Shown one piece after another: positions 12,875 to 58,327 of a stretch of DNA of 64,000 bases. The stretch spans positions 1 through 64,000 of the forward strand of contig JAFYWK010000056.1 of NCBI GenBank assembly GCA_017558065.1, read 5' to 3'. The stretch is from Paludibacteraceae bacterium. GTDB lineage: Bacteria; Bacteroidota; Bacteroidia; Bacteroidales; Paludibacteraceae. The position numbers and the translations under genes are program-made. Below the pieces are notes generated by a model. The model was not told the origin of the DNA and did not search any database. It saw nothing but the letters and a program-made list of their open reading frames with translations. The stretch's first letter is position 1. The number at the start of each line of letters is the position of its first letter.

Positions 12875-13842
12875 ATAATAAGGTGCGCGTAGTTATTGAC
12901 AAAGGGATTCCTTTCTTAGAGGGGGTGTTTGATCCGATTGCGGAAGCGGTCTTTCTTTCTCCGGAGGAGATAAACGCGCATACCGTTCGTGATGCAGATG
13001 CGCTCTTCGTGCGCACGCGCACGCAGATAAATAAGGAGTTGCTTGCGGGTAGTCGAGTACGTTTTGTCGCAACAGCCACTATTGGTTATGATCATATAGA
13101 CCAAGATTATTGTCGTGCAGCAGGTGTTCATTGGGTTTCGTGTCCGGGCTGCAATGCGCAGGCTGTGTGTGATTATGTGCAAGAAGTGTTGAGCACATTG
13201 TGTCCTCAAGCCTATGGCAAGACGATAGGGGTGATCGGATATGGCCACGTAGGTAAGTTGGTGGCTGCCATGGCAAGTCATATGGGCTATGAAGTAATGC
13301 TTTCAGACCCGCCATTAGGCATCGGGAAACCGCTTAGGCATATTGCTTCTCAATGTGATGTTCTCACCTTCCATACACCGCTAACCCGTGATGGAGAATA
13401 TCCCACTTTCCATTTATGCGATGCAGAGGTGTTGCGTCTTTGCAAGCAGAATGCACTGATTATTAACGCTGCTCGTGGTGGGGTTATCGACGAGCAAGCA
13501 CTATTCTCTCGCCTTTCGCCTCTCGCCTCATCGCCTCATCGCCTCACAACCGCCATCGACTGTTGGGAGGGTGAACCGCAGGTCAACAAGGCGCTACTGC
13601 AACACGTTGATTTGGCATCTTTTCACATTGCGGGTTACTCTATTTTGGGTAAAATGCGGGCCAGTGAGATGTGTTTGACAGCTTTTTGCGAATTTTTCTC
13701 GCTTCCTATTTTGTCAATCAACAAAAAATTAGTACCTTTGCACGGTGATTCGGAACCTGGTTGGTTAAAACGCATTTCTGACCAACTCAAAGCCCAACCC
13801 GAGCAATTCGAACAACTTCGAAAATCATATCCGCTACGCTAA
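12871..13842 (+). CDS. pdxB: Erythronate-4-phosphate dehydrogenase (2-hydroxyacid dehydrogenase family)
   Basis: The predicted reaction is NAD-dependent oxidation of 4-phosphoerythronate in pyridoxal phosphate synthesis. Motifs are VRTRTQIN, VATATIGYDHID, IGVIGYGHVGKLVA (NAD fold), LIINAARGGVIDEQAL, IDCWEGEPQ and SFHIAGYSILGKMRA (catalytic His). The 323-residue length is shorter than the roughly 380 of enteric PdxB, so the C-terminal dimerisation part is reduced. The likely start is TTG at 12871, overlapping the panC stop as TTGA; GTG at 12883 is an alternative. A word-repeat array (13506-13550) encodes the loop RLSPLASSPHRLTTA, which has no counterpart in typical homologues. Confidence 0.85.
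   Translation: MNNKVRVVIDKGIPFLEGVFDPIAEAVFLSPEEINAHTVRDADALFVRTRTQINKELLAGSRVRFVATATIGYDHIDQDYCRAAGVHWVSCPGCNAQAVCDYVQEVLSTLCPQAYGKTIGVIGYGHVGKLVAAMASHMGYEVMLSDPPLGIGKPLRHIASQCDVLTFHTPLTRDGEYPTFHLCDAEVLRLCKQNALIINAARGGVIDEQALFSRLSPLASSPHRLTTAIDCWEGEPQVNKALLQHVDLASFHIAGYSILGKMRASEMCLTAFCEFFSLPILSINKKLVPLHGDSEPGWLKRISDQLKAQPEQFEQLRKSYPLR
13506..13550 (+). repeat. Word-repeat array inside pdxB
   Basis: Degenerate 8-9-bp words (TCGCCTTTCGCCTC, TCGCCTCA) are repeated about five times and are in frame with pdxB. The same words occur at 33441, 50690 and 51055 in other genes. Confidence 0.75.
13709..13740 (+). promoter_or_regulatory. Promoter for proS within the 3' end of pdxB
   Basis: TTTTG (13709-13713), a 19-bp spacer and TACCTTTG (13733-13740) match the consensus well, 154 bp before the proS start. 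Confidence 0.6.
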
Positions 13843-13876
13843 ACAACTCTAAACAACACTAAACAACACTGAACTA
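13838..13876 (+). repeat. Decamer word array between pdxB and proS
   Basis: Units of the type CTAAACAACA/CTAAACAACT repeat three times. The pdxB stop codon TAA (13840-13842) is part of the first unit. Confidence 0.75.
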
Positions 13877-13893
13877 AAAATATCAATACTATA

Positions 13894-22100: not shown

Positions 22101-22327
22101 AAGATGGCAGCTATCTCCGCCTCAAGAACCTCCAAATCGGCTACACCTTGCCTAAGAACATCACCGAGAAATTCCACTGCTCTCGCCTGCGCTTCTACAT
22201 CACGGCAAGCAACCTCTTCACCATCACCAACTATTCTGGTTATGACCCAGAGGTGGGCTCAGGTGTGGACTACGGCAACTATCCACAAAGCCGCACATTC
22301 ACATTCGGTCTCAATGCTACATTCTAA
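19172..22327 (+). pseudogene. SusC-like TonB-dependent outer-membrane transporter, split by an in-frame TAA
   Basis: SusC proteins form the outer-membrane pore that imports oligosaccharides together with a SusD lid. The N-terminal part (19172-20968) has a signal peptide, a carboxypeptidase-regulatory-like domain (ISGVVMAEGEPDPVIGANV), the motif LDEVVAVGYGTMKRSDLTGA and the plug (LYVVDGVI, SATAIYGSRGANGVILVTT). The rest of the barrel (20969-22327) continues in the same frame and ends FTFGLNATF with terminal Phe. Between them, codon 599 (20966-20968) is TAA where family members have DRY followed by Met/Leu-Thr (here ADR-stop-MITSNFRADASSRY). A single base change from TAT or TAC explains it. The next codon is ATG, so reinitiation is conceivable, but two half-barrels are unlikely to work. 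Without the stop the protein would be 1,051 residues, a normal length. It may be a genuine mutation, a variable site, or a sequencing error. Confidence 0.9.
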
Positions 22328-22358
22328 ACAACTCTAACAACTCTAAACAATACACAAT
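22321..22358 (+). repeat. Decamer word array between susC and susD
   Basis: CTAAACAACT-type words, repeated three times, span the susC stop codon (22325-22327) and run to the susD ATG. Confidence 0.7.
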
Positions 22359-24964: not shown

Positions 24965-24975
24965 CGCTATCAAAT

Positions 24976-25030: not shown

Positions 25031-25085
25031 ACGGTATATTAGTATAGGCGTACCGTAGCAATAAGCGATGAATACCCCCCGCTTT

Positions 25086-26433: not shown

Positions 26434-27678
26434 ATGAAACAACTAAGTAGTATAATATTTGTTGTAATAAGTGCTCTCTTCCTAATCTCTTGCGAAGGCA
26501 ACACCCCTACGCTTGACCAGCCCTCTGCCATGCAGAAGAGTGCCAAGCGCGGTGTGTCATTCGACTTCAAGAAGATCGACGACCTGCCCATCCTGTCCCC
26601 TTCTGTTTCATGGTCTTACAACTGGGGCAACTCCCAAAACGCTACCGCAGCCCTTTGGTTCGACACCAACAACATGGATTTCTGCCCAATGTGCTGGAAT
26701 AACTCATACAGCGCAGACAAGATTCGCCAGTATGTGCAGGAGCACCCCAACACCAAATACCTACTGGGCTTCAACGAACCCAACCTCACCGACCAATGCA
26801 ACATGACCCCCGCGCAAGCGGCGGAGCATTGGCCACAAGTGGTAGCATTGGCGAAAGAGCTGAACCTCCAGCTCATCTCTCCTGCCATGAACTATGGCAC
26901 GCTCGCGGGTTATCACGACCCTATCAAATGGCTCGATGAGTTCTTTGCACTGCCTAATGTGTCGCTGGGCGATATCCATGCGATTGCTATCCACTGCTAT
27001 ATGGCATCGCCTTCTGCTGTCAAAGATTATATCAAGAAATTCGAGAAATACGGCAAACCCATCTGGATGACCGAGTTCTGTGCTTGGGACCCCGTACCAA
27101 GCAATGTCGAGAAGCAAATGGATTATATGTGCGCTGTCCTCAACCACATGGAGCAGAACCCTCATGTAGAACGCTACGCATGGTTCATGCCTCGCACCAG
27201 TGGCAAGGTGGACTCTGCCCCCTATATGCAACTGCTCACCCACGGCTCGCCTGTCGCCCTCACACCGCTCGGACAAATCTTCACCCAGTTCTCCTCTTTC
27301 GATAAGAACGCCTACCTCGCCCTCAACAAAGGCATAGGTGCACACCAATACATCGCCCTGAAAGATGAGAGTATCTCCCTGCGTGTCACGGACAACAACC
27401 AACTCTATATCCAATCCTTTATGCAAGGACAATGGATTGATTATCAAATCAATGTACAAAGCAAACAACCGCTGCAAATCCAATATGCCACCATCGTCAA
27501 TAGTCAGATCTGTATCTATATCGACGGCGTAGCCCAAGCGATAGTGGACGTACCCAAAACCGCTGATATACAATCGGTTACTACGCTCACAACCACCGTT
27601 ATCCCACCACTCGGCAACCACACCCTTCGCATTGAAGCACTAAAAGGAACCTTTAATTGCTACCAACTTTTACAATAA
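26434..27678 (+). CDS. GH128-like glycoside hydrolase lipoprotein (probable beta-1,3-glucanase)
   Basis: The 414-residue protein has a lipoprotein signal (ALFLISCEGN). A TIM-barrel 'glycosyl hydrolase catalytic core' spans about residues 40-275 (SWSYNWGNS, KYLLGFNEPNLTDQCNMTPA, LISPAMNYG, IHCYMA, PIWMTEFCAWD). The two likely catalytic glutamates are in GFNEPN and WMTEFC, as in GH128 (Asl1-like) beta-1,3-glucanases. The C-terminal 120 residues form a beta-rich domain with YIDGVAQAIVDVPKTA, possibly a carbohydrate-binding module. It sits between two GH16 genes. The family call rests on the motifs and context. Confidence 0.8.
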   Translation: MKQLSSIIFVVISALFLISCEGNTPTLDQPSAMQKSAKRGVSFDFKKIDDLPILSPSVSWSYNWGNSQNATAALWFDTNNMDFCPMCWNNSYSADKIRQYVQEHPNTKYLLGFNEPNLTDQCNMTPAQAAEHWPQVVALAKELNLQLISPAMNYGTLAGYHDPIKWLDEFFALPNVSLGDIHAIAIHCYMASPSAVKDYIKKFEKYGKPIWMTEFCAWDPVPSNVEKQMDYMCAVLNHMEQNPHVERYAWFMPRTSGKVDSAPYMQLLTHGSPVALTPLGQIFTQFSSFDKNAYLALNKGIGAHQYIALKDESISLRVTDNNQLYIQSFMQGQWIDYQINVQSKQPLQIQYATIVNSQICIYIDGVAQAIVDVPKTADIQSVTTLTTTVIPPLGNHTLRIEALKGTFNCYQLLQ

Positions 27679-27735
27679 ACCACTCTAAACAACTCTACAC
27701 TATGCTACACCACGCTAAACAACTCTACACCATGC
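27676..27735 (+). repeat. Decamer word array spanning the GH128 stop and GH16 start
   Basis: CTCTAAACAA/CTCTACACTA/TGCTACACCA/CGCTAAACAA/CTCTACACCA words repeat with a period of exactly 10. They include the GH128 stop (27676-27678) and the start codon and first ten codons of the next gene. Confidence 0.85.
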
Positions 27736-28736
27736 TTCTGCTAATGCTTGCCCTGCCTTTGGCTGCGCAGGACTACACCCTCGTTTGGAACGAAGATTTC
27801 ACCGACGCAACCCTCGACCGCAATGTATGGAATATCGAGGTCAATGGCGACGGCGGTGGCAACAATGAGCTGCAATACTATTGCGAGAAAGGTGTCACCC
27901 TCGACATCGAACCCACCACGGGCAAACGCTGCCTTGTCCTCACTGCCACCAAAGAGGATTACAAAGGCAAGAAATGCACCTCTGGTCGTGTCAATACCAA
28001 GAATAATCTCTACTACACCTTCGGCAAGATCGAAGCGCGTATCAAGTTCCCCAACACGGCCAATGGTCTTTGGCCTGCGTTCTGGCAGATGGGCAACGAC
28101 TTCGATAAAGTAGGTTGGCCACGCTGCGGCGAGACCGACATCATCGAGTTGGGCAATGCCAATGGTATCAAACATGGTACCCAAGACCGATTCTTCAATG
28201 GTGCTCTACACCTCGGCTCGGCATGGAACACTGTTTGGTGCGATGCACAAGACATCACCTATCCTTATTCGGTAGAGGATACTTTCCATATCGTCACCAT
28301 GATCTGGACACCTACCTCTATCGACATGTATATGGATCGCGATGCCAACCCAGGTGTGAAACCTTATTTCAGTGCAAAGCTCGAGCACAACGATGACCCT
28401 TACTACAACCGCAGTCTCGTCTTCGCCAAACCCAACTTCATCATTGCTAACCTCGCTGTGGGTGGCAACTTCCCTCAAATCTGGGACATCAAGCAAATCT
28501 CTGCCCTCGCCAATGGACCACGCTCTGTCTATATCGACTGGATTCGCATCTACCAACAAGGCACCGACAAGGAGACCTTCATCTCTCCTTCACCCTCCGA
28601 TGCCATCGAACCCGAACGTGGTACAGCAGTGGATAATATCACCCTCACCCAACCAGCACAAAAAGTCATCCTCAACGGCAAGTTATATATCCGCAAAAAC
28701 GGACAACTATACAACATCGTAGGACAACCACTCTAA
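27702..28736 (+). CDS. Secreted GH16 beta-glucanase with C-terminal tail
   Basis: The predicted laminarinase-type GH16 domain spans about residues 25-290 (YTLVWNEDFTDATLDRNVWN, GGGNNELQYYCEKG, RCGETDIIELGNANG). The catalytic ExDxxE is present in GETDIIELG. The domain ends VYIDWIRIYQQ. A linker leads to a C-terminal tail (KVILNGKLYIRKNGQLYNI..) of the type found in six PUL proteins, a candidate T9SS sorting signal. The start is ATG 27702 or 27732; the first ten codons come from the word-repeat array and are nearly identical to those of the next GH16 gene. The signal peptide core is MLLLMLALPLAAQ. It is secreted, not a lipoprotein. Confidence 0.9.
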   Translation: MLHHAKQLYTMLLLMLALPLAAQDYTLVWNEDFTDATLDRNVWNIEVNGDGGGNNELQYYCEKGVTLDIEPTTGKRCLVLTATKEDYKGKKCTSGRVNTKNNLYYTFGKIEARIKFPNTANGLWPAFWQMGNDFDKVGWPRCGETDIIELGNANGIKHGTQDRFFNGALHLGSAWNTVWCDAQDITYPYSVEDTFHIVTMIWTPTSIDMYMDRDANPGVKPYFSAKLEHNDDPYYNRSLVFAKPNFIIANLAVGGNFPQIWDIKQISALANGPRSVYIDWIRIYQQGTDKETFISPSPSDAIEPERGTAVDNITLTQPAQKVILNGKLYIRKNGQLYNIVGQPL

Positions 28737-28835
28737 ACAACTCTACACAACTCTAAACAACTCTACACAACTCTAAACAATTCTACACAACTCTACACCA
28801 TGCTACACCACGCTAAACAACTCTACACCATGCTA
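28727..28835 (+). repeat. Long decamer word array between two GH16 genes
   Basis: About eleven consecutive 10-bp units (CTCTAAACAA, CTCTACACAA, CTCTACACCA and variants) contain the first gene's stop codon (28734-28736) and run in frame through the start and first residues of the second gene. Confidence 0.9.
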
Positions 28836-31379: not shown

Positions 31380-34300
31380 ATGATGGTTAAAGGTCAATAC
31401 ATAGAAATAGATGGCGAACGCTTCTACTGCATTGAGAACTACAATCACATGCAGCCATTCTTCATATCGCTCGCCAGCGATACCGACCTTTGGATGTACA
31501 TCTCATCCACAGGCGGACTCACATGCGGTCGCCGCAACCCCGAGCAAGTGCTCTTCCCTTACTACACCGATGATAAGATCACCGAGAACTACGAGCAGAC
31601 GGGTCCTAAGACTATCCTCCGCGTACACACTGCCCAAGGTACCAGACTCTGGGAACCCTTCTCATCGCGTCAGATGGGTACCTACCACATCATTCGCTCC
31701 ATAGCTAAGTCGGTGACGGGCAACCGCCTCATCTTCATTGAGAAGAATATAGATTTGGGCTTCACCTTCTCCTATGAGTGGGCACCTGCTACGCATCTCG
31801 GTTGGGTACGCACTGCGCGCCTCTCCAACGAGACCGCCGCTCCTATCACCGTAGAAGTGCTGGACGGCTTGCAAAATGTCATGCCTTCGGGTGTAGAGCG
31901 TATCACGCAAAACACCTTCTCGACTTTGGTGGATGGCTATAAGCGTACCGAACATGTAGGCAATGGCATGGTGCTCTTCCGCATGGAAGCTATCCTCGTG
32001 GACCGCGCCGAACCCAGCGAATCCCTCCGCTGCAACTCCGTTTATACATTATTCCCGCCTTTAGCCTCTAACCTTTCGCCTTTAACCTATCTCACCTCCT
32101 CCGCTCAACTCGACACTTTCCGCCAAGGTGGTGATATCCAACTCGAACCCGAGTCCAAAGGTGTCCGCGGAGCCATCTTCGCCCATTTTACAACTACATT
32201 ACCTAGTAAAAACAACTCTACACAACGCTACACTACACTACACAACTCTACACCATGCACTTGGCACTTCATCTGCGATGTCATGCAAGACGCCGTCTCC
32301 GTGCGTCGCAACATGGCTTTCATGCAGCAAGCTAACGCTATTGAGCAACTGCAAACAGCCCTGCAAACCACCACCGCTAACCTACGCCAAATCGTAGCGC
32401 AGAACGATGGTGTTCAACACACAGCCGACGAGGCCAACGACGCGCGCCACTTTGCCAACACGCTCTTCAATACCATGCGCGGTGGCTTCTATTGCGATAG
32501 CTACCAGATATCTGGTCCCGCTTTCGCAGCGCATGTGGCGCTTTTCAACCGTGCGTTGGCAGACAAACATCATACTTTCCTCAGCGACCTGCCTGAGTCG
32601 ATCTCCTATGCCGAACTCGACCAAGCCGTGCAGGACCGTCAGGACCACCAACTCCATCGCCTATTCATGGAGTACCTACCGCTCACATTCTCGCGCCGTC
32701 ATGGCGACCCAAGCCGTCCATGGAACCTCTTCGATATCCGTGTGAAGGACGAGCAAGACCGCCATATCATCTCCTATCAAGGCAACTGGCGCGACATCTT
32801 CCAGAACTGGGAAGCCCTATCGCTCTCCTATCCAGATTTCACCAATAGCATCATCGCCAAGTTCCTCAATGCAACGACGGCCGATGGCTATAACCCATAC
32901 AAAGTGACCTCCGAAGGCATCGACTGGGAGGTCATCGAACCCGAGAACCCATGGTCGAATATCGGCTATTGGGGCGACCACCAGATCATCTATCTCTGTC
33001 GCCTACTCGAACTCAGTTACGCACACAACCCCGCAGCGCTTCGCCAGTTATTGGGCATGCGCGAGTTCGCGTTTGCCAATGTGCCTTATCGCTTCAAGTC
33101 CTATAGCGACATCGTACGCGATCCAAAGAATTCTATTCTTTTCGATCAAGCGGCTCACGAACATATTTTGTCGCAGTTATCCACCTACGGACAAGATGCT
33201 CGTTTGTTGATGGGTTATGACCAACAACCACTCTTGGTAACTTTCACCGAGAAGATTTTGGTTACACTGCTCACCAAACTCAGCAATTTCATTCCAGAGG
33301 CAGGTATATGGATGAATACCCTTCGCCCAGAGTGGAACGATGCGAATAATGCTTTGGTAGGTAATGGCGCATCTATGGTGACACTCTACTACATGCGTCG
33401 CTTTGTGTCATTCCTCATTCAACTCTATGATGGCGAAGCCCATTCTTCCTCGCCTCTCGCCTCATCGCCTATATCCAACACCTACGCCCTCTCCGAAGAG
33501 GTCGTACTCTTCCTCCGCAATATACTGACTGCTATGGTCAATCACTTGCCAGAGCAAGCAGACCAACCTATCTCCTTCACTGACCATACTCGCCGAACTT
33601 TCACCGACCAGATGGGTCGAGCAGGCGAGGCATACCGCAACGCGATCTATGCAGGTCACTCGGGCAAGAAAGTGGAGATGGACGCATCGCTCATCTGCCA
33701 GTTCCTCAATATGACACTCGATTTCATCGACCAGTCGATTGATGTCAACCAGCGCGAAGATGGTCTATATCATGCATATAATCTCGTGAAGTTCGACCGT
33801 GGCACCATCACCATCAGCCATCTCTACGAGATGCTCGAGGGTCAAGTGGCAGTCCTCTCTTCTCGCCGTTTGAATGCCGAGCAAGCAGCCGACTTGTTGG
33901 ACGCCATGCGCCAGTCCGCACTTTACCGCGAGGACCAACGCAGCTACATGCTCTATCCCGCACGCAAGCGCGCGTCCTTCTTAGATATGAACAATCTGCC
34001 TGCTGAAGCATTGTCTTTGCCAATCGTACAACGCCTCTTGGCAAATCACGCCACCGACATCCTCACGCAGGATTGTCAGGGTGGGGTACACTTCTCAGCA
34101 GACTTCAACAATGCCGACTTCCTCTTGCGCGCTATTCAGCGCTCGGCGTTGCAGATCACGGAAGAAGAAACCCAACAACTCCTTGACCTCTATGAGCAAC
34201 TATTTAATCATCATGCTTTCACAGGTCGCTCAGGCACTTTCTACAAGTACGAAGGTCTGGGCTGTATCTACTGGCACATGGTCAGCAAACTCCTCCTCGC

Positions 34301-34766: not shown

Positions 34767-36400
34767 AAAGAACATTTTTATATGTAGCATGCGCAATATG
34801 CATGTCTTCTTGTGCAAAAGACATATCTTCCACACAAGTGTGGCTTACTTCTGCTGCGGGTGATAAGTTCGCAGAGCAGGAAAGTGTTATTTTCCATAAA
34901 GGAGAGGTGGATAACGCAGTTACCATTGATATCAATGAGAAGAAACAAACGATTGATGGCTATGGTGGTTCATTGACCGAATCTTCTGCTTTTGTATTGG
35001 CGTGTCTTACGGATGAGCAACGACAGAGCGTGTTGCATGAGTTGTTCTCAGAAGAGGGTGCTAATTTCTCCGTGGTGCGCACACAAATTGGTTCTTCGGA
35101 CTTCTCGGTTGAGGGCAAGTATGCGCTTACTGAGGTTGATGGTGATACTGCCATGCAGTTCTTCTCTCTTGATAGAGATAAGGAAGGGTTTAGCGTGGCT
35201 CAGTACCCACAGGTGAAGGATGAGCAATACGATCTCTACCATCTCATGAAGGATGTTTGGAATATTAAACAAACTCAATCGGACAAGACCTATCGCATTA
35301 TGGCAAGTCCATGGACAGCACCTGCGTGGATGAAGGACAACAAGAAGTACTACGAGCGTGAGAATGGTGTAGCAAGAGGTGGTGCGCTGTTGCCTCAATA
35401 CTACCAAGCATATGCTAATTACATTACTGAATATGTCAAGGCATGGCAGCAGGAGGGTGTGAATATATGGTCTGTTACACCAGTCAACGAACCTATGGGT
35501 AACGATGGTGGTTGGGAGAGTATGGATTTCTCTCCACAAGTGGAGACAGAGTTTATCAAAAACTATTTGGCGCCAACTCTCGCGCGTAATGGTTTGCAAG
35601 ATGTAGCCATCTATGGCTTTGATCAGAACATTTTCGAGATGCAACCTTATGCAGATGCCATTTATCAAGACTCGCTCGCTTGCCAATACACCACGGGTAT
35701 GGCAGTGCATTGGTATGGCAGCACCATTGGTTGCTTCCCAGAGACACTCGAAGAGGTACATGCTCAATATCCTAATAAGTCGATTTTCCATTCTGAGGGA
35801 TGTATTGATAACTTGGGCTGCCCACCATGGGATGGTGTGACAGAACCTGTTGGATTCCAAGAATCAGGATGGTTTAATAACGATGCTTTCTGGTGGAATA
35901 AGATTGCCACGGATTGGGCATATTCCACTCGTTGGGCGGGTGGTACGCACCCTAAGTATTCGCCAGTATTCCGATATGCGCAATATATTATTGATGGTAC
36001 CAACCACTGGTTGACGGGTTATTGCGATTGGAATATTGTTCTCGATTCTATTGGCGGACCTAACCATGTGAACAATTTTGCGGGAGCGCAGGTGATGATT
36101 GATAATGCAAATAATGTTGTTTATTACACGCCTTATTACTATGTGCTCAAACAGTTCTCTCGTTCGATGCGTCCTGGTGATGTCGCATTGCAGGTGCATT
36201 ATCCAAGCACGATGAAGACGGGTGTGGATTGTGAGACGCAAGACATTTTCCTCTGTGCAGTAGAGAAGACCGATGATTCATATGCTATTAATATCCTCAA
36301 CATGGGTCCTGCCACTACTTTGCCTATCCAGTTAGGCGATTACTATGCGCAGATCGAACTTCCAGCATCTTCTGTTAAAACCATTATTGTCACCCTCTAA
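34763..36400 (+). CDS. GH30 glycoside hydrolase lipoprotein (beta-glucosidase or beta-1,6-glucanase)
   Basis: The 545-residue protein has a lipoprotein signal (AICMSSCAKD). The GH30 TIM barrel has IDGYGGSLTESSAFVLACL, MASPWTAPAWMKDN, the acid/base glutamate in WSVTPVNEPMGNDGG and the nucleophile glutamate in IFHSEGCIDNLG. A C-terminal beta domain follows (AVEKTDDSYAINILNMGPA). This arrangement fits GH30 subfamilies 1-3, which include beta-1,6-glucanases used on branched beta-1,3-glucans. Its start overlaps the phosphorylase stop. No C-terminal sorting tail is present. Confidence 0.88.
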   Translation: MKRTFLYVACAICMSSCAKDISSTQVWLTSAAGDKFAEQESVIFHKGEVDNAVTIDINEKKQTIDGYGGSLTESSAFVLACLTDEQRQSVLHELFSEEGANFSVVRTQIGSSDFSVEGKYALTEVDGDTAMQFFSLDRDKEGFSVAQYPQVKDEQYDLYHLMKDVWNIKQTQSDKTYRIMASPWTAPAWMKDNKKYYERENGVARGGALLPQYYQAYANYITEYVKAWQQEGVNIWSVTPVNEPMGNDGGWESMDFSPQVETEFIKNYLAPTLARNGLQDVAIYGFDQNIFEMQPYADAIYQDSLACQYTTGMAVHWYGSTIGCFPETLEEVHAQYPNKSIFHSEGCIDNLGCPPWDGVTEPVGFQESGWFNNDAFWWNKIATDWAYSTRWAGGTHPKYSPVFRYAQYIIDGTNHWLTGYCDWNIVLDSIGGPNHVNNFAGAQVMIDNANNVVYYTPYYYVLKQFSRSMRPGDVALQVHYPSTMKTGVDCETQDIFLCAVEKTDDSYAINILNMGPATTLPIQLGDYYAQIELPASSVKTIIVTL

Positions 36401-36475
36401 ACAACACTCCACCACTCTAAACAACTCTACACCACTCTAAACAACACTCCACCACTCTAAACAACACTAAACAAT
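36393..36475 (+). repeat. Decamer word array between GH30 and GH3
   Basis: CTCTAAACAA, CACTCCACCA and CTCTACACCA alternate in 10-bp units over about 80 bp. They include the GH30 stop (36398-36400) and end at the GH3 ATG. Confidence 0.9.
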
Positions 36476-38749
36476 ATGAAACGTCTCATCCCACTAATAG
36501 CCCTTTTCGTTCTCGTTTCTTGCCAACCCAAGGACCCGATAGAGCAGCGCATTGACGATCTCCTTGCACAAATGACACTTGAGGAGAAGATTGGTCAGAT
36601 GAATCAACTCGATCCTTCTTGGAGTGCCGAGGAGAAGGAGCCTTTGATTGCTCAAGGATTGATGGGCTCTATTTTCAATATCGTTGATCCGCAAGAGGTC
36701 AATCGTCTGCAACGCATGGCGGTGGAGGAATCTCGTTTGGGTATTCCATTGCTTGTGGCGCGCGATGTGATTCATGGTTTCCGCACTATTTATCCTATTC
36801 CATTGGGTCAGGCAGCCACTTTTGACCTTGCATTGGTAGAAGAGGCAGCGCGTTTGACAGCTGAGGAAGCGGTGCAAGCAGGCGTACGTTGGACTTTCTC
36901 GCCTATGGTAGATGTTGCGCGTGATCCTCGTTGGGGTCGTGTAGCAGAAGGTTATGGCGAAGACACTTATCTCACTTCTCAGATGGGTGCAGCTGCGGTG
37001 CGTGGTTATCAAGGAAGCGATTCTATTGTTAAGTTAGCTGCTTGTGTGAAGCACTTTGCGGGTTATGCTGTTTCTGAGAGCGGACGTGATTATAACTCCA
37101 CATGGATTCCTGAGATACAACTCCGCGAAACATATCTTCCTCCGTTCAAGGCGGCATTGGATGCGGGTTCGTTGTCTATTATGTGTGCTTTCAATGATAT
37201 CAATGGTGTGCCTGCTTCGGCTAATAAGCATTTGAATGTGAATATCCTCCGTGATGAGTGGCAGTATGATGGTCTGCTCGTGTCTGATTGGGGCTCTATT
37301 ATGAATATGGTATCTCATGGTATTGCTACCGATCGTCGAGAAACAGCTATTCAGAGTCTAGAGGCACAAGTGGAGATGGATATGCAGAGTAATGCGTATT
37401 TGTGGTATCTCAAGGATCTTGTAGAGCAAGGTGTGGTTAGTGAACAACAGATAGATGCTTGTGTGCGTGACATTTTGCGTATGAAGTTCCGTTTGGGTTT
37501 GTTTGATAATCCGTATTGCGAAGTGGAAACACCTCAGTATTTCCAACCAGAGGCATTGGCAGCAGCGCAACGCGCAGCCGAAGAGTCTGCAGTATTGTTG
37601 AAGAACAACAATGCCTTGCCTTTAACCTCTAACCTTTCACCTTTAACCTCCAAACCAACGGTTTTAGTCTGCGGTCCTCTCGCCCACAACCAACACGACC
37701 AGAATGGCACATGGTGCTTTGATAAGGTGGATTCGATGACTATTACTCCTTTGATGGCATTCCGCCAGTTGGCTAAGGAGAGCAAGATTCGCCTCATTGA
37801 GCAGAAGGGTAAGCACTGGTCGCGCGAGGTAAGCCAAAGCAATATTGCTCAGCTCACTCGCTTGGCGAAGCAAGCTGATGTGGTGTTGTATTTCGGTGGT
37901 GAGGAGAGTATATTGTCGGGCGAGGCGCGTTGTCGTGCTCACTTGAATTTGCCGGGTGACCAATCGGAGCAACTCCGTGCGCTCAAAGCCACGGGCAAAC
38001 CAGTCGTATTGACTGTGATGGCAGGTCGTCCATTGTGTATAGGTGATGATATTGCTGCGGTGGATGCGGTGTTGTATGCTTTTCATGGTGGCACGATGCA
38101 AGGTCCTGCTTTGGCTAATCTGATTATGGGTGAGGTGGCACCTTCTGGACGTTTGCCGATTACTTTCCCACAGGCAGAGGGACAAATTCCTTTGTATTAT
38201 AATAAGAAGAACACGGGTCGTCCTACCGACCACCCTGTGTTGATTGATGATATACCAGTAGGAGCGGGTCAGTTCTCTATTGGCGAATCCAGCTATTGGT
38301 TAGAGTATGGCGATCAACCGCTCTATCCTTTTGGTTACGGATTGACTTATACTACCTTCGAGTACGGTCCCGTTGTCCTCTCCGACACAATTCTTGACTT
38401 TACACCTTACACCCTACACCCTACACTGCAGGTTTCCTGCATTATCAAAAACACAGGCAACCGCGAGGCTGTTGCAGTACCACAGTTGTACATCCGTGAC
38501 CTTGTTGGCTCGCTGACACGCCCAGTGCGCGAACTCAAAGGTTTCCAACGCGTGAGTATTCCTGCTGGTGAGTCGCGTACAGTGACCTTCACGCTTACTA
38601 AAGAAGATTTAGCATATTGGCATTTGGCAGAGGGAGTTGATTTAGGGGCGGATGGCAAGTACGAGTTCTCAGCCGAACAAGGTGCTTTCCATGTATGGAT
38701 AGCTCCAAACGCTGCGGAGGGAGAACCTGCTACATTTACACTGAAATAA
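36476..38749 (+). CDS. GH3 beta-glucosidase lipoprotein
   Basis: The 757-residue exo-acting beta-glucosidase is predicted to release glucose from oligosaccharide ends. The lipoprotein signal is FVLVSCQPK (Cys near residue 16). The N-terminal TIM barrel includes IGQMNQLDPSW, ARDVIHGFRTIYPIPLGQAA and CVKHFAGYAV. The nucleophile Asp is in YDGLLVSDWGSIMN (near residue 283). The alpha/beta sandwich domain has QADVVLYFGGEESILSGEAR and the C-terminal FnIII-like domain has QVSCIIKNTGNREAVAVPQLYI. Two in-frame word arrays interrupt it: one encodes LPLTSNLSPLTSK between domains (37615-37655), the other DFTPYTLHPTLQ before the FnIII domain (38399-38431). Confidence 0.93.
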   Translation: MKRLIPLIALFVLVSCQPKDPIEQRIDDLLAQMTLEEKIGQMNQLDPSWSAEEKEPLIAQGLMGSIFNIVDPQEVNRLQRMAVEESRLGIPLLVARDVIHGFRTIYPIPLGQAATFDLALVEEAARLTAEEAVQAGVRWTFSPMVDVARDPRWGRVAEGYGEDTYLTSQMGAAAVRGYQGSDSIVKLAACVKHFAGYAVSESGRDYNSTWIPEIQLRETYLPPFKAALDAGSLSIMCAFNDINGVPASANKHLNVNILRDEWQYDGLLVSDWGSIMNMVSHGIATDRRETAIQSLEAQVEMDMQSNAYLWYLKDLVEQGVVSEQQIDACVRDILRMKFRLGLFDNPYCEVETPQYFQPEALAAAQRAAEESAVLLKNNNALPLTSNLSPLTSKPTVLVCGPLAHNQHDQNGTWCFDKVDSMTITPLMAFRQLAKESKIRLIEQKGKHWSREVSQSNIAQLTRLAKQADVVLYFGGEESILSGEARCRAHLNLPGDQSEQLRALKATGKPVVLTVMAGRPLCIGDDIAAVDAVLYAFHGGTMQGPALANLIMGEVAPSGRLPITFPQAEGQIPLYYNKKNTGRPTDHPVLIDDIPVGAGQFSIGESSYWLEYGDQPLYPFGYGLTYTTFEYGPVVLSDTILDFTPYTLHPTLQVSCIIKNTGNREAVAVPQLYIRDLVGSLTRPVRELKGFQRVSIPAGESRTVTFTLTKEDLAYWHLAEGVDLGADGKYEFSAEQGAFHVWIAPNAAEGEPATFTLK
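37615..37655 (+). repeat. Word array inside the GH3 gene (first)
   Basis: CCTTTAACCTCTAACCTTTC followed by ACCTTTAACC is in frame at the junction of the two main GH3 domains. Confidence 0.8.
38399..38431 (+). repeat. Word array inside the GH3 gene (second)
   Basis: TTTACACCTTACACC followed by CTACACCCTACACTG is in frame. It encodes the peptide TPYTLHPT, also found (TPYTLHST) in GH81 at 53688. Confidence 0.8.
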
Positions 38750-47146: not shown

Positions 47147-47213
47147 GGAAGAATAGCGGCAAACGCCGCATCTTCCTCACCTTTACACCTTACACTTTAC
47201 ACAATAAACTAAA
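47147..47213 (+). repeat. Hairpin plus word-repeat cassette
   Basis: GGAAGA/TCTTCC and GCGGC/GCCGC form a stem at 47147-47176 around an AAAC loop. CTTTACACC-type words follow (about 47179-47203), just before a small gene. It has the same architecture as 50575-50640, 55459-55550 and 56526-56617. Confidence 0.7.
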
Positions 47214-49123: not shown

Positions 49124-49124
49124 T

Positions 49125-49236
49125 CTAACAACTCTAACAACTCTAAACCACTCTACACCACTCTACACAATTCTACACAACTCTACACCATTCTACACAA
49201 CTCTACACCATCCTACACAACCCTACACAACACACC
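49125..49236 (+). repeat. Decamer word array (about 11 units) before the 49240 gene
   Basis: CTCTAAACCA, CTCTACACCA, CTCTACACAA and TTCTACACAA units continue for 110 bp with a period of 10, directly after a hairpin and up to the start codon. Confidence 0.92.
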
Positions 49237-50554: not shown

Positions 50555-50652
50555 CTATGAGTGATAAGTGATGAGGCGAGAATTGCGGCGTAAGCCGCAT
50601 TCTCCTCGCCTTTACACTATACACTTTACACCATACACTGCGCCTCTGGCGC
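50555..50652 (+). repeat. Hairpin plus word-repeat cassette before GH81
   Basis: GGCGAG/CTCGCC (50575-50580 with 50605-50610) encloses TGCGGC/GCCGCA around GTAA. CTTTACACTATACACTTTAC-type words follow (50609-50640), and then a hairpin GCGCC-TCT-GGCGC (50640-50652), 10 bp before the ATG. Confidence 0.8.
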
Positions 50653-53600: not shown

Positions 53601-54835
53601 GCTTCATCGACCACATCACTCTCCGCTGGGAAGCTGCCTATGCCAACTCCTTCGCTCTCCTAATCACAGATACTATACCTCTCGCCTTTACACCCTACAC
53701 CCTACACTCTACACCTTTCACCTCCTCAGGCGGCACTCAAACCATCACTCTCTCCCAAACGGGACGCTACATCACATTGGTGGGACTCACCCGCGCTACG
53801 CAGTACGGTACATCGCTCTACGAACTGGAAGCATACGGTATGCCTATCGCAGGGGATAACGACGCTCTCTTTGGTCTCGCCATTTATGCTGACCGAGATG
53901 CACTCACACAGAACGAAGAACTGCTCTTCGAAGTAAAAGGCTACAACCGCTTAGGCGAGGAAGTCAGTTGCCAACCTACGCTTACTGCCGAAGGAGCAAT
54001 CCTCAAGGGCAATCGTCTCCAACCGACCACCACAGGCACTATTCGCCTCACGGCCACTATCGGCAGTATCACTGCCTCACGCACATTCATCGTCATGGAG
54101 TCAGAGCAAATCACCGCCACCACCGTATCGCCTAAGTATATCACCCTACCATTAGGCGACACCCAACGCTTCACCGTGTCTGCTATCAATCAGTTTGGTA
54201 TCACCGAAATCGAATCATCCGAATACTACGAAGCTACTGCCTTGGGCGATCATCAATTTATCGTCTCCTTAGGAGGCTTTACCGACACGGCCTATATCCA
54301 TGTAGTGGACTTTGCCGACCTCAACCTGGCACTGGGTAAACCCACTACCTGCTCGGGTAGCGAGAACGGCGGTACTAGCAGCGACAAGGCCACCGACGGA
54401 CTATTAGACACCCGCTGGTCATCCCGCTTCCAAGATGGCGAATGGCTGGTCATTGACCTACAAAACACCTATGCTGTCAATCGTGTCAAACTCTATTGGG
54501 AAGCCGCCTACGCTACACACTTTGATATTCAACTCTCCAACGATGGCGTCCAATATACTACGGCTTATACCGCCACCAATGCCAAAGGTGGCACACAGGA
54601 TATTCTTCTGCCCGCAGGCGCTACCGAAGCACGCTATGTGCGTATCCTATGCCATAAGCGCAATACAGGTTATGGATCGTCGCTCTACGAAGTAGAAGTA
54701 TATGGCGTTCGCCCACCCGTCACCAATCTGCAAGACCCTACCATCAGTACCGAGGTTATAAAAAGAATGGAGAACAACCGTCTGGTTATTCTCCATCATG
54801 GAATCAAGTATAATGTGTTGGGGTATCGGTTATAG
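50663..54835 (+). CDS. Secreted GH81 endo-beta-1,3-glucanase with two F5/8C domains
   Basis: The 1,390-residue protein has a signal peptide (residues 1 to about 24) built largely from word repeats (HLLALSPHHLLAQ). The GH81 catalytic region spans about residues 30-740: RPLPSNDWWTYALVNP, TYWGGKGLTQMAHY, DHHFHYGYFVYASAL, GNGQESSSESMQGWGGVWML with the catalytic glutamates, and YCCNLTMQGVGWWTWFSGD. Ig-like regions alternate with two F5/8C domains (NIALGKPVTASSHENA near 933 and NLALGKPTTCSGSENG near 1218). The tail is KRMENNRLVILHHGIKYN. Four inserted-looking repeat stretches are noted separately. GH81 cuts long internal beta-1,3-glucan chains, so this is probably the lead endo-enzyme of the PUL. 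The stop is 8 bp from the convergent maf stop. Confidence 0.92.
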   Translation: MRKSLFLILAFHLLALSPHHLLAQSPIAIGSGSYASFPPLEESRSSLHGGCQAYQMEHRPIYIVDSLQGRPLPSNDWWTYALVNPWTGKLWAYPALVWADATGISIAKPSYWEPTGCEMKWNDPLTITTLAFSPDILIASSPHRPFSPQSALISHWSDYMIAFVLQDGSAEVRVTLMQGSPLVWLEFTNAEPTITNPDPNALTVFQHTAGNTTTLAVAVLTDNLTTEDLQPYAFRIPRNTQITYDYLSNQSLLRTQFHISYQDIVPTNANGIWQGFLPHHYYNTHTDIAFAPATYATPRGEMRLAQGNDFTIDYPVHGMLPFFPVPYDSLQGYDPALMRTLCAEYALAGSFGADTYWGGKGLTQMAHYMTTAYQLGDTATFELAKSRLRATLIDWYTYTVGEDQYYFAYYDRWGALVGFDPSYDSDTFNDHHFHYGYFVYASALLCMFDDDFRQQYGPMAHLVALDYANPYKSEPLTSNLSPFASYFPSFRTFNPYLGHSFAGGMGNEGNGNGQESSSESMQGWGGVWMLGAALGDEDLMEAGIYGYTLEARGTAEYWFDRGRRNIDYSKYLHPYCCNLTMQGVGWWTWFSGDPVWMHSIQWLPISPILQNYLTEDRAFARWDYTQMYDSKEVGNYEAPTGGLGDESGLGNVCLSYLALFDPDSAAHVWTRMRQMGKALAKNPDTGGITYLLAHSLRAYGHQDHSIQANYPLAAAYTDSLTGKTTYAVYNATNEELTVTFSSSTGAANLPSSAQRSSIFKRSDLPSSAQRSISFTAPAHRITLFTDSPTLTEIRLEGPSVVLPNSTNEYLLRFLDQYGATFRADSIIHYTAPATAQLTEIRATYQSLATALSIRVGALPYMATATIQPAIDYLALGNTVDFTIAATDQYGEAYPVDWTYHFAPATPGQYIIAYEGERTILDTVVVLPPYPNIALGKPVTASSHENAGTLPKGINDGDLSTRWGSAHKDNEYITIDLLQPSFIDHITLRWEAAYANSFALLITDTIPLAFTPYTLHSTPFTSSGGTQTITLSQTGRYITLVGLTRATQYGTSLYELEAYGMPIAGDNDALFGLAIYADRDALTQNEELLFEVKGYNRLGEEVSCQPTLTAEGAILKGNRLQPTTTGTIRLTATIGSITASRTFIVMESEQITATTVSPKYITLPLGDTQRFTVSAINQFGITEIESSEYYEATALGDHQFIVSLGGFTDTAYIHVVDFADLNLALGKPTTCSGSENGGTSSDKATDGLLDTRWSSRFQDGEWLVIDLQNTYAVNRVKLYWEAAYATHFDIQLSNDGVQYTTAYTATNAKGGTQDILLPAGATEARYVRILCHKRNTGYGSSLYEVEVYGVRPPVTNLQDPTISTEVIKRMENNRLVILHHGIKYNVLGYRL
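50690..50745 (+). repeat. Word array forming the GH81 signal peptide
   Basis: CCTTTCACCTCCTCGCC, TTATCGCCTCATCACC and TCCTCGCCCAATCGCCC words supply codons of the hydrophobic core and the following residues. Confidence 0.75.
51055..51105 (+). repeat. Word array inside GH81
   Basis: TCGCCTGATATCC, TTATCGCCTCATCGCCTCA and TCGCCCCTTCTCACCTC encode SPDILIASSPHRPFSP, matching the pdxB peptide ASSPHR. Confidence 0.75.
52083..52118 (+). repeat. Word array inside GH81 (SNLSPFAS)
   Basis: CCTTTAACCTCTAACC followed by TATCGCCTTTCGCCTCA is in frame and encodes PLTSNLSPFASY. Confidence 0.75.
52908..52977 (+). repeat. Three tandem ~24-bp repeats in the GH81 linker
   Basis: TCTTCCATCTTCAGCGCAGC and two close copies (the second one base longer) lie between the catalytic region and the first Ig-like domain. 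They encode LPSSAQRS, IFKRSD, LPSSAQRS. Confidence 0.85.
53688..53725 (+). repeat. Word array inside the first F5/8C domain of GH81
   Basis: CGCCTTTACACCCTACACC followed by CTACACTCTACACCTTTCAC encodes AFTPYTLHSTPFTSS. In the second F5/8C domain of the same protein the corresponding loop is DGVQYTTAYTATNAKGG. Confidence 0.8.
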
Positions 54836-54857: not shown

Positions 54858-55449
54858 ATTTTAGCCACTCATATACTCTGCCAATAGGGAAACCCATGAC
54901 ATTGAAATACGAGCCCTCCATGCGTGTAACACCTACATAGCCAATCCACTCTTGTACGCCATATGCCCCTGCTTTGTCAAGGGGCATATATTTCTCTACA
55001 TAATAGTCTATCTCCTCTGCCGTAAGCGTGCGGAAGGTGACATCAGTACAGTCCACGAATGAGTCGTGTAGCGTGGTGTAGTGTGGGGTAGAAGCGGTTA
55101 GTGGTGTCGTGTGGTCTAACCAAGTGAAGCATACTGCCGTATATACCTGATGAGTCTGACCGCTCAATTGTATAAGCATCTGCTTGGCCTCCTCTTTGGA
55201 TTGGGGCTTACCGAGCATCTGTCCGTTGAGCCATACTATCGTATCCGAAGTGATGAGCAAGTCCTCCACTTGCAACTGCTCCGCGTATGCGCGCGCCTTG
55301 GCGCGCGATATATACAGAGGTATATCGCCTGCTTGCAAGTGAGCAGGATACGACTCATCTGCATCAATCGTGATACAGCTAAAAGGAATATCTAAACCCG
55401 CCATCAATTCGCGACGGCGAGGACTTTGACTACCGAGGATGAGGTTCAT
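54844..55449 (-). CDS. maf: Maf-like nucleoside triphosphate pyrophosphatase
   Basis: The enzyme removes modified nucleoside triphosphates; it was historically linked to septum inhibition. Motifs are LILGSQSPRRRELMAGL, ITSDTIVWLNGQMLGKPQSK, LSGQTHQVYTAVC and KAGAYGVQEWIGYVGVTRME. The 201-residue length is normal, apart from a loop of about 20 residues around TPLTASTPHYTTLHD. Its DNA (about 55062-55115) reads, on the coding strand, as word repeats of the CTACACCACGCTACAC type. It is the last gene of the pta-ackA-GH13-ubiA-maf run. Confidence 0.92.
   Translation of the reverse strand: MNLILGSQSPRRRELMAGLDIPFSCITIDADESYPAHLQAGDIPLYISRAKARAYAEQLQVEDLLITSDTIVWLNGQMLGKPQSKEEAKQMLIQLSGQTHQVYTAVCFTWLDHTTPLTASTPHYTTLHDSFVDCTDVTFRTLTAEEIDYYVEKYMPLDKAGAYGVQEWIGYVGVTRMEGSYFNVMGFPIGRVYEWLKSHNR
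55062..55115 (-). repeat. Word array inside maf
   Basis: On the coding strand, ACCACTAACCGCTTCTACC, CCACACTACACC and ACGCTACACGACTC words encode the loop TPLTASTPHYTTLHD. Confidence 0.7.
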
Positions 55450-55458
55450 GTTGTGTTT

Positions 55459-55550
55459 AGTGTAGGGTGTTTAGTGTAAAGTGTAAAGGCAGGACGGCGT
55501 AGCCGTATATTCCGTGCCTTTAAACTATAAACTTTACACTTTCAACTATA
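55459..55550 (-). repeat. 92-bp hairpin/word element, copy 1
   Basis: It matches 56526-56617 with one mismatch. An outer stem (AGTGTAAAGT with ACTTTACACT), a middle stem (AAAGGCA with TGCCTTT) and an inner stem (ACGGC-GTA-GCCGT) are nested. The prenyltransferase stop codon lies within it. Confidence 0.92.
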
Positions 55551-56525: not shown

Positions 56526-56617
56526 AGTGTAGGGTGTTTAGTGTAAAGTGTAAAGGCAGGACGGCGTAGCCGTATATTCCGTGCCTTTAAACTATAAACT
56601 TTACACTTTAAACTATA
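56526..56617 (-). repeat. 92-bp hairpin/word element, copy 2
   Basis: This is a direct copy of 55459-55550, 1,067 bp away, with a single mismatch. It fills the gap between the GH13 stop and the prenyltransferase start. Confidence 0.92.
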
Positions 56618-56618
56618 A

Positions 56619-58253
56619 TTAGCCTCTAATCTTCAGCACCACTCCCTTCCATGCTGGCAACGTGAGGCATATAGGTGTATGCGGAGAGAGTGGGAAGGTA
56701 TATACTGTGTCGGTGAGCAAATCCACTGCTTCTACCAGGGAGTATTCGGGTTGTTGCAAATGCTCGAATGCCTCCTGCGGAATGCGCACTTGTATATCCG
56801 TTTGGTGGTCGTCAAAATTAAGCACTACCAGTAGGGTATGCTGTTTGTATTTGCGGATATAAGCATAGTGCTCGTGCTTGTTAAATCCCTCGCCTTGTGC
56901 GTACACCAGGTCATACATCTCGCCCTGCGTGATGGCTTTCTCTGTGCGTGATAGGCGTAGCAACTGGCGGTAGAAGGAGCGCAGCGTTTGTTGCTCTTCA
57001 CTCAGTCCTGCACCGTCAAACTTACCATGGTTAGTCCATGCTTGCAGCGATTTGATGCCCCAATAGTCAAAGATAGTAGTCTTGCCGTCTATGCCAGAGA
57101 AGCCCTCAGCATCCATACCCTTCTCACCCAGCTCTTGTCCTGCATAGACCATCACAGGGTTGGTGCCCAGTGTGGCTGCCACAATCATAGCTGGCTCAGC
57201 ACACATACCTCGTCCACAGAAGAATCCACTGGCGATACGCTGCTCGTCATGATTCTCCAAGAAATAGAGCATATGCTCGCGTATGTCGTCCACGGCTTGC
57301 CATTGCTGAGTGATACCCTCCGCAGGCCAGTTCTTGCTGGTCACGCCGCGCAGGTAGTCGTACATGCCCACCTTATCGTATAGGTAGTCAAAGCCAGCAG
57401 CCAGATAGTCGCGATAGAGCGATGGATTATACACCTCAGCGATAAAGAGCAGTTCGGGATATTGCTCTTTGACTTGTGCGATAGCCCATGTCCAAAAGGC
57501 CTGTGGCACCATCTCTGCCATATCGCAGCGGAAACCATCAATGCCTTTACCTGCCCAGAAAAGCAAGATATGTAGCATCTTATGCCATGTGTCAGGGATA
57601 GGGTCAAACTGCTGTTCGCCACCATTGAGGTAGAAGACACCATAGTTGAGTTTGACTGTCTCATACCAATCGTCTTTGGATGGATGGGCTGTAAAGCAGT
57701 CATTGCCTGTCGCACGGGCAGGATTCTCTTGATAGCCCTCTACATCAAAATGCGGTGCAAATGGCTCGCCCATATAATAGAAATTGTTGAGCGGTGAGAA
57801 TGCCCAATTAGGATTATCGTTAGCACCCAAGTCCACAACTCCCTTGGGCTTGCAACTGGAGTGATACTCGCGTGCCACATGGTTAGGCACAAAGTCAATA
57901 ATCACTTTCAGATTTGCATGGTGACTACGTTCTACCAATTGGGTGAACTCTTGCATACGACGACGTTTGTCTTCGCATAGGTCGGGGTTAATGTCGTAGT
58001 AATCGGTGATGGCATATGGGCTGCCAGCCTTGCCTTTGACAATAGCAGGGGTGTTGTATTGCGCAGTGGCATGGCGAATAACGCCTGTGTACCACACATG
58101 CGTTGCGCCCAAGTCGCGGATAGCGCGCAGGGCTTTGGGCGTAATGGCGTTCAGCGTACCTGAGCCATTCTCTTGGAGCGTACCATTATGACGGCGTGTC
58201 TCGTTGTAGTTGGTGAAGGTACGCGGTAATAATTGATAAATAATTGGTTTCAA
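56619..58253 (-). CDS. Cytoplasmic GH13 alpha-amylase-family enzyme
   Basis: The 544-residue protein has no signal peptide and starts MKPIIYQLLPRTF. The TIM-barrel conserved regions are VIIDFVPNHVAREYHS, GFRCDMAEMVP (nucleophile Asp), LLFIAEVYNPS (acid/base Glu) and FLENHDEQRIASGFF. A C-terminal beta domain follows (HTLLVVLNFDDHQTDIQVRI). Substrate specificity within GH13 cannot be assigned; intracellular maltodextrin or glycogen breakdown is plausible. It lies between ackA and the prenyltransferase gene. Confidence 0.92.
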   Translation of the reverse strand: MKPIIYQLLPRTFTNYNETRRHNGTLQENGSGTLNAITPKALRAIRDLGATHVWYTGVIRHATAQYNTPAIVKGKAGSPYAITDYYDINPDLCEDKRRRMQEFTQLVERSHHANLKVIIDFVPNHVAREYHSSCKPKGVVDLGANDNPNWAFSPLNNFYYMGEPFAPHFDVEGYQENPARATGNDCFTAHPSKDDWYETVKLNYGVFYLNGGEQQFDPIPDTWHKMLHILLFWAGKGIDGFRCDMAEMVPQAFWTWAIAQVKEQYPELLFIAEVYNPSLYRDYLAAGFDYLYDKVGMYDYLRGVTSKNWPAEGITQQWQAVDDIREHMLYFLENHDEQRIASGFFCGRGMCAEPAMIVAATLGTNPVMVYAGQELGEKGMDAEGFSGIDGKTTIFDYWGIKSLQAWTNHGKFDGAGLSEEQQTLRSFYRQLLRLSRTEKAITQGEMYDLVYAQGEGFNKHEHYAYIRKYKQHTLLVVLNFDDHQTDIQVRIPQEAFEHLQQPEYSLVEAVDLLTDTVYTFPLSPHTPICLTLPAWKGVVLKIRG

Positions 58254-58271
58254 GGTTCAGTGCGTATTTGC

Positions 58272-58327
58272 ATGGGGAAGCCACTTGCGTGGCTTTCCCA
58301 TCTTAATTCATAATTCAAAATTCCTAA
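58272..58327 (-). repeat. Hairpin plus AATTC words between ackA and GH13
   Basis: ATGGGGAAGCCAC pairs with GTGGCTTTCCCAT (58272-58301), next to AATTCATAATTCAAAATTC-type words (58305-58322). This again is a hairpin next to short words. Confidence 0.7.

Follow-up and report, generated by a model that had tools for sequence, protein, structure and literature searches.

Degenerate short-word repeats fill small intergenic gaps and some in-protein stretches in a Paludibacteraceae gut bacterium

In the genome of a Paludibacteraceae gut bacterium, small intergenic gaps and some stretches within proteins are filled by repeats of short degenerate words. These belong to two families: a decamer, YNCTAMACMA, with six near-fixed and four variable positions, and a heptamer, YNTACAC. 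Even close relatives differ in the word found at a given place, and the arrays therefore look like a fast-changing filler tolerated by translation. With roughly even confidence, we favour the view that these dispersed arrays proliferate within and between loci, turn over, and are filtered by what translation tolerates.

In the grammar of the decamer, six of the ten positions are 95–100% fixed (83 sandwiched intergenic units of this genome), and the core is likewise retained in 25 units lying in sense within ORFs. The word is spread over the genome, recurring at many unrelated sites: using CTCTAMACMACTCTAMACMA as query, with at most 2 mismatches, 192 matches were found, against 1 for the reversed pattern. 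In a sample of 449,565 bp, consisting of stretches taken by contig, from contigs picked among those with matches, 19 decamer arrays with three units or more were counted; the reversed sequence gave 0, and three Markov-1 simulations gave 0, 0 and 0. Runs of YNTACAC number 10 in 473 kb, a heptamer count which, like the k-mer count, takes in two stretches fetched for their arrays. No description of either word was found in the literature, among the matches listed. A known structured cis-regulatory RNA was rejected, the only match of an Rfam scan at gathering score over the window (the whole stretch of DNA analysed, 64 kb) being a tRNA at 60832-60906.

An earlier note on the window had described a single family of word repeats at ten places. 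Repeats are present at all ten, far above chance, but two families are mixed: decamers at 13838, 22321 (irregular), 27676, 28727, 36393 and 49125, and YNTACAC heptamers at 47179, 50609, 55459 and 56526. On the plus strand, the decamer array at 13837..13876 lies between the stop of the upstream ORF (the TAA of its first word, 13840-13842) and the proS ATG at 13894; a short, irregular one (22323..22350) precedes a SusD-like gene at 22359; that at 27673..27732, between the gene 26434-27678 and a GH16 gene, shares the reading frame of an ATG at 27702, and its 3' half may therefore be translated; and the one at 28731..28830, which has fewer units in the relatives G082 and G152, spans the start (ATG 28800) of a second GH16 paralogue. 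The stop-start gap 5' of a GH3 gene (36476) is filled by the array at 36395..36474, and about ten units (49124..49231) precede the gene of an F5/8 type C protein at 49240, both again on the plus strand. Two decamer arrays are in frame within ORFs, one on the plus strand at 32206..32255 (ORF 31380-34766), the other on the minus strand at 55064..55093 (Maf-like ORF, maf). Plus-strand heptamer arrays are located within the ORF 36476-38749 (38399..38426), before a 41-aa ORF at 47227 (47182..47209, three exact units and a variant), 24 nt 5' of the ATG 50663 of GH81 (50611..50638), and within the GH81 ORF (53687..53721). On the minus strand, two 92-bp elements, identical at 91 of 92 bases, contain inverted heptads, a central hairpin and a YNTACAC array: one (55459..55550) lies 5' of maf, and the second copy (56526..56617) fills the gap 5' of a UbiA-family gene. 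Inspected by eye, a hairpin precedes each of the YNTACAC arrays at 47179, 50609, 55459 and 56526, and inverted heptads precede the last two.

Gene positions were defined by a purpose-built Markov ORF caller, supplemented by a length rule for low-bias genes, and some called starts are uncertain. In the contig-based sample, 8 of the 19 arrays have most of their length in the 100 bp preceding a same-strand start, a location covering 3.8% of strand positions (p=2e-7). Orientation was evaluated on a wider sample of 47 arrays of this genome, partly chosen for containing arrays, in a survey where one array is counted twice owing to overlap of some loci of the relative G088: of the 29 arrays flanked by co-directional genes, 24 are sense and 5 antisense, by which strict strand fixity is rejected. 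Most sense arrays (20 out of 24) end at most 11 nt from the called start or run past it, and the word's TAA is the upstream stop codon in 10 of the 20 arrays having a sense ORF that ends near their 5' end. The enrichment upstream of starts, the strand bias and the frequent presence of a stop codon within the word, all anticipated by the earlier note, were thus confirmed. Its statement that every array immediately precedes a start codon reflects, in contrast, a selection effect: 16 of the 47 arrays are called inside ORFs, as are 32206-32255 and 55064-55093 in the window. The arrays at 47179 and 50609 stop about 17 and 24 nt short of the next ATG. In-ORF arrays, which had not been foreseen, are sense in 13 cases and antisense in 3; among the 13 sense ones, L149:3972 probably represents a leader whose start was called at the wrong place. 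In-frame inserts occur, for example, in Queuosine_synth, LpxB and Mur-ligase family proteins.

The sense RNA of the arrays is largely unstructured: mean MFE is -0.75 kcal/mol in 22 array leaders, compared with -5.03 in 266 non-array leaders (p about 1e-9). G content is 0.9% in the former and 13% in the latter, in agreement with the G-free mRNA strand noticed at the outset, and false start codons per 40 nt are 0.05 as opposed to 1.39. Genes downstream of arrays have a slightly higher coding score (22 vs 413 genes, p=0.017). According to passages of PMC6847099, initiation in Flavobacterium johnsoniae depends on low mRNA structure, and AUG is under-represented near starts in Bacteroidetes. These features are what would be expected if arrays were positively selected translation enhancers, providing unstructured A/C/U leaders that would raise initiation in a bacterium lacking Shine-Dalgarno pairing, as the earlier note proposed. 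The near absence of G and of folding stands; a dedicated translation aid, however, appears unlikely, since about a third of the arrays are called inside ORFs, an A/C/U leader requires no fixed core in a 10-bp register, and in five relatives proS has no leader at all. Moreover, decamer-free leaders of three array genes in relatives fold like ordinary ones (mean -5.04, 12 leaders, a set leaving out two proS leaders located within the upstream gene, at -1.3 and -3.1). As relatives carry other sequence or nothing at these junctions, and their leaders fold ordinarily, the genes do not demand an array leader.

Presence and absence in relatives could be followed site by site. A G088 site was found for 16 of the 47 arrays, with decamers in both genomes in 10 cases and only in the present one in 6, a comparison which may share the double count. 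Examples of the latter group are proS, empty in G088, folA, where TTTGAAT heptads are found, and C66:23387, with TTTACAC heptads. Among the 33 G088 arrays, 10 are shared, 3 are specific to G088 and 20 are without a fetched site in the present genome. The proS array has three units here and five in G082, the closest relative compared (flanks about 90-93% identical; G088 is close, but less so); in G077, G078, G088, G152 and G159 the stop and start codons overlap (TAATG) and no array is found. The folA decamer is absent in 7 of 8 relatives, being present in G014, and that at L145:8749 is absent in 4 of 6. Since orthologous junctions may be empty or differently filled, conserved gene-specific elements are unlikely; this candidate was rejected, because the proS, folA and other junctions hold other sequence or nothing in most relatives.

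As counted on repeat alignments, which are biased by being based on the core and in which unit replacement could mimic substitution, the present genome and G088 differ at 12 of 322 core and 35 of 213 free sites; the figures are 8/210 and 28/140 for intergenic units (p=2.5e-6; flanks 14.6%), and 4/112 and 7/73 for in-ORF units, where the contrast is not significant (p=0.12). Such a contrast is predicted more directly by a binding-site model than by copying. Less probably, arrays might be clustered sites for a putative sequence-specific RNA- or DNA-binding regulator, in line with the post-transcriptional one proposed for TAACTGA repeats, reading CTAMACMA every 10 bases, with the number of units setting the strength. 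The fixation of six decamer positions in intergenic units, the absence of mutual information among free positions in G064, and a spelling that differs between species, position 6 being always A in G064 (114 units) and A or C in the present genome (G000), point in the same direction. The bias of core-based alignment weakens this argument, however, and a regulator would not easily account for the same core being found in sense units within ORFs, nor for the loss or swap of the word at orthologous junctions. In addition, some linkage between free positions is seen in G014, G009 and G078, and between positions 6 and 9 in G000.

The order of units bears on how arrays grow. Adjacent identical units are 8/108 in G000 (11.1±2.3 expected) and 21/114 in G064 (20.6±3.6 expected); G009 features local runs of identical units (26/50 adjacent identical, 18.2±2.8 expected). 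Such runs, and the variation of unit number between relatives at one site with neighbouring units kept in the same order, seen at C33:48751 and, for proS, in G082, are compatible with ordinary minisatellites produced by independent replication slippage at each site. This origin is very improbable and was rejected, as one word is found at many unrelated sites, variation is almost limited to four decamer positions, and adjacent units in G000 and G064 are no more alike than chance.

In the reading we prefer, arrays would arise and grow by copying of short unit blocks from the same or other arrays, possibly by template switching or ectopic exchange. Two-unit strings common to different arrays of the present genome are 52, against 30.8±7.5; in G064 those repeated within arrays are 29, against 15.3±3.4, and a 59-bp string is common to two loci. 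Arrays would survive where harmless, either in sense between a stop and the next start, where their G-free, unfolded RNA, containing few false starts, would suit start selection without Shine-Dalgarno pairing, or within proteins, when the frame is kept. What keeps the core fixed may be recurrent copying out of a common pool, or else selection for a binding motif; we lean towards copying combined with selection at the RNA level. Some observations run against copying: in G000 and G064 adjoining units resemble one another no more than shuffled ones do, unlike what fresh tandem duplication produces, two-unit strings common to different G064 arrays show no enrichment (50 vs 43.6±6.6), and no copying enzyme or intermediate was found, the PF01797 search of the genome being blank. 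The independence of the free positions, most evident in G064, and the absence of likeness between neighbours are as predicted by a different possibility, which we consider rather doubtful: in this lineage, an active enzyme adding or copying units on a common template that leaves some positions free, or else a protein reading one decamer per helical turn or RNA register. Such a system would hold CTA-AC-A in each unit, the other positions being drawn independently.

Within the genus, decamers were detected in 18 of 151 genomes, with control searches giving 0 except in G125 (2) and G159 (1). Kinship was judged by proS identity, two genomes having no proS match: decamers occur in all 12 genomes whose proS reaches 94% identity or more across 460 residues or more, and in 6 of the other 139. 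A 7-mer search allowing 3 mismatches matched 119 of 151 genomes; since the reversed control also matches many, no distribution of the 7-mer was drawn. The search for candidate proteins covered PF01797, the Y1 transposase domain, only. No match at E<=0.001 was found in G000, by which the need for a Y1/RAYT transposase, as in RAYT/REP elements, is rejected; matches were found in 52 of the 151 genomes, four of which (G009, G041, G064, G125) have decamers.

Tandem heptamer words scattered between genes, and species-specific, are known in cyanobacteria as STRR. The YNTACAC runs are heptamers too, though any descent from the cyanobacterial words would be conjectural; the decamer family, the coupling to start codons and sense strand, and the in-frame inserts set the present repeats apart. 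Rickettsia palindromic elements, small repeats found both in frame within genes and between genes, are palindromes of about 100-150 bp; the arrays described here are tandem 7- and 10-mers, with no obligatory palindrome. Closer than the cyanobacterial repeats, which the earlier note regarded as the nearest analogue, are the start-proximal TAACTGA direct repeats of marine Beggiatoaceae, Cyanobacteria and some Bacteroidetes, described in passages of MacGregor 2015 (PMC4679880) as tandem short words in forward orientation just upstream of starts, the largest single class ending 1 nt before the start. As here, some overlap the upstream stop, a minority lie in ORFs and their distribution is uneven; the same passages report no pattern in downstream function and no predicted RNA structure, again as here. 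TAACTGA itself is not the unit of the present arrays, whose logos are YNCTAMACMA and YNTACAC: in contrast with the single 7-mer of those passages, the words found here are 10 and 7 bp long and combine a fixed core with free positions. Arrays within ORFs are mostly in sense orientation, whereas interior TAACTGA repeats are reverse-oriented, and replacement of the word at the same junction in relatives is a further difference from what these parts of PMC4679880 describe, where a post-transcriptional regulator is proposed. The tandem repeats of archaeal Borgs, in the sections of PMC9879509 concerned, are similarly fast evolving and found both between genes and in ORFs with frame-keeping unit lengths; their units are, however, perfect copies, virtually all unique within each genome, whereas here one degenerate word is used genome-wide.

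Start-proximal repeats of short words have already been reported as a puzzle; here the process is visible in motion. Among close relatives, one and the same stop-start junction may be empty, filled or occupied by a different word, and enzymes carry in-frame inserts, which makes it testable whether the arrays form a regulatory network or are selfish filler that translation has shaped. Junctions do not conserve the identity of their word, which cautions against reading such repeats as regulons.

The genome under study comprises 2.44 Mb in 83 contigs; the window opens one of these, 133 kb long, and spans its initial 64 kb. Two Paludibacteraceae MAGs, obtained from roe deer and yak colon, are the nearest named kin of this genome by proS. 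Repeats were present at all ten places where the earlier note had reported a single word family, which resolves into two: the decamer YNCTAMACMA at six places and the heptamer YNTACAC at four, each of the latter preceded by a hairpin, as judged by eye. Two of the heptamer places are copies of a 92-bp element (55459-55550 and 56526-56617, both on the minus strand, 91 of 92 bases identical), with inverted heptads and a central hairpin, which occupy two neighbouring stop-start gaps; the element is possibly a small mobile, MITE-like unit. Further word families exist in the window: different words (ATACGTTAGAT, CATCGTGACCT) form tandem arrays with an 11-bp period at 24974-25033 and 42101-42149, before the genes at 25136 and 42280. 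Two tandem GH16 paralogues (27702-29771) have part of an array and the signal-peptide start in common, and the 3' array units there, in frame with an ATG, may be translated. The gene cluster at 27657-54835, encoding two GH16, GH3, GH81 and F5/8 type C proteins, is likely a beta-glucan utilisation locus.

Allowing up to two mismatches, the 20-mer CTCTAMACMACTCTAMACMA has 192 matches in this genome, against one for the reversed pattern. In 449,565 bp, sampled contig by contig among contigs with matches, 19 decamer arrays of at least three units were found; none occurred in the reversed sequence, nor in any of three Markov-1 simulations. Twelve lie mostly outside ORFs, in the 11% of the sequence that is non-ORF, and eight lie on the same strand as a start and mostly within 100 bp upstream of it, compared with 3.8% of strand positions (p=2e-7), the stranded enrichment that the earlier note had anticipated. 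Ranking 12-mers by number of loci (473 kb, including two stretches fetched for arrays), only words resembling the Bacteroidota promoter motif, TAnnTTTG, exceed the decamer words (17 vs 12 loci). Further words repeated at six or more loci in these 473 kb are AGAGGTTAAAGG, GATGAGGC-type octamers, and the hairpin words CAATATCCAATA and GGCGGAACGCC.

Placement was analyzed in 639,294 bases, partly fetched because of arrays, containing 47 arrays of at least three units. Between co-directional genes 24 are sense and 5 antisense, inside ORFs 13 are sense (one of which, L149:3972, is probably a leader) and 3 antisense, and one each is divergent and convergent. The mRNA strand is thus usual rather than fixed, and the position directly before a start, proposed as general, holds for 20 of the 24 sense intergenic arrays, which stop at most 11 nt short of the called start or run past it, but not for the 16 arrays called in ORFs. 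The upstream stop is the word's own TAA in 10 of 20 arrays, as had been suggested, although any ORF entering an array would tend to stop there too. The claim of a G-free mRNA strand was borne out, array leaders containing 0.9% G vs 13%; their MFE is -0.75 vs -5.03 kcal/mol in non-array leaders (22 vs 266 leaders), and false start codons number 0.05 vs 1.39 per 40 nt. Since the reverse complement of these leaders would carry 6.3 false starts per 40 nt, the strand bias near starts may reflect selection against the opposite orientation.

To limit detection bias, word composition was tabulated only for units sandwiched between two detected units. In 83 intergenic units, six core positions (C3, T4, A5, A7, C8 and A10) are fixed at 95-100%; the others vary, with C or T at position 1, mostly T at 2, and A or C at 6 and 9, plus a few T at 9. 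The same six core positions are 92-100% fixed in 25 sense in-ORF units. The heptamer is laid out in parallel, with a two-base spacer (C/T, then A/C/T) and a nearly fixed TACAC (14 units). In 114 units of G064, a more distant genus member with arrays of up to 19 units at several junctions (C1:91665-110889), position 6 is invariably A, with A, C or T at position 2. No mutual information was found among free positions in G064; in our genome only positions 6 and 9 are linked, and some links occur in three other members (G014, G009 and G078). Neighbouring units are no more alike than in within-array shuffles in our genome and G064, but are so in G009. Multi-unit strings are shared somewhat above expectation: two-unit strings common to different arrays of our genome number 52 vs 30.8±7.5 expected, and those recurring within G064 arrays 29 vs 15.3±3.4, the exception being strings common to different G064 arrays (50 vs 43.6±6.6).

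In-frame arrays were found in a Queuosine_synth protein (twice), LpxB, three Mur-ligase family proteins (by our reading, one MurF-like and one FolC-like), a DHODB iron-sulfur domain protein, a U32 peptidase, a TRCF (Mfd-like) protein, a DUF4922 protein, Maf, and a window ORF with no Pfam match. Some combine steps of 10 and 11 bp and so encode peptides like the QPLHHST repeats. The Queuosine_synth gene (L132:3739-5052) carries its two arrays separately and encodes 437 aa, vs 322 positions in the Pfam model. At the MurF-like site, relatives have a short loop (G159 and G009), other repeats (G074 and G070) or inserts of other kinds (G041 and G014).

Three-unit decamers occur in 18 of 151 genomes of the genus, two of these with one match each. 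All 12 genomes whose proS shows 94% identity or more across 460 residues or more bear them, as do 6 of the other 139; in 16 other families of the order, represented by one genome each, at most one two-unit match per genome was found, and the control pattern likewise gave at most one. A close relative, G088, 79-94% identical across the long matches listed, has 117 matches of the 20-mer. Its corresponding site was found for 16 of our 47 arrays, with decamers in both genomes at 10 and in ours only at 6; from the G088 side, 10 arrays are shared, 3 are specific to G088 and 20 have no fetched counterpart. The proS junction measures 51 bases from stop to start in our genome, with three whole units; the closest relative compared, G082 (flanks about 90-93% identical), has five units and an identical tail, and stop and start overlap (TAATG) in G077, G078, G088, G152 and G159. 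Unit number before the ATG at 28800 is lower in G082 and G152. Decamers are missing from the folA junction in 7 of 8 relatives, G088 having TTTGAAT heptads there, and from the L145:8749 junction in 4 of 6, two of them with AATTCAT heptads. Longer repeats of the GATCTACAGCGCAGC / GATCTACAGCGAATATAATGAGCG type replace decamers at a G088 junction (L328) and at the G070 MurF-like site (L269).

Arrays most likely spread and alter through copying of short unit runs. Across the 10 arrays shared with G088, the two genomes differ at 12 of 322 core and 35 of 213 free sites. For intergenic arrays the figures are 8/210 and 28/140 (p=2.5e-6; flanks 14.6%), for in-ORF arrays 4/112 and 7/73 (p=0.12; flanks 12.5%). 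The fixed core is the feature that copying handles least well, and a binding protein is therefore a serious rival. On the copying explanation, arrays would persist where harmless, and a sense array before a start would provide a leader devoid of G, structure or false starts, properties which agree with Bacteroidetes initiation as reported in PMC6847099. The arrays are not needed before such starts: for three of the same genes, 12 leaders that lack decamers show ordinary folding.

The TAACTGA repeats of PMC4679880 match our arrays in where they lie, how they are oriented, their overlap with stops and their patchy distribution; to these traits our arrays add their own word, the fixed-core grammar, the sense in-frame inserts and the swapping of words between relatives.
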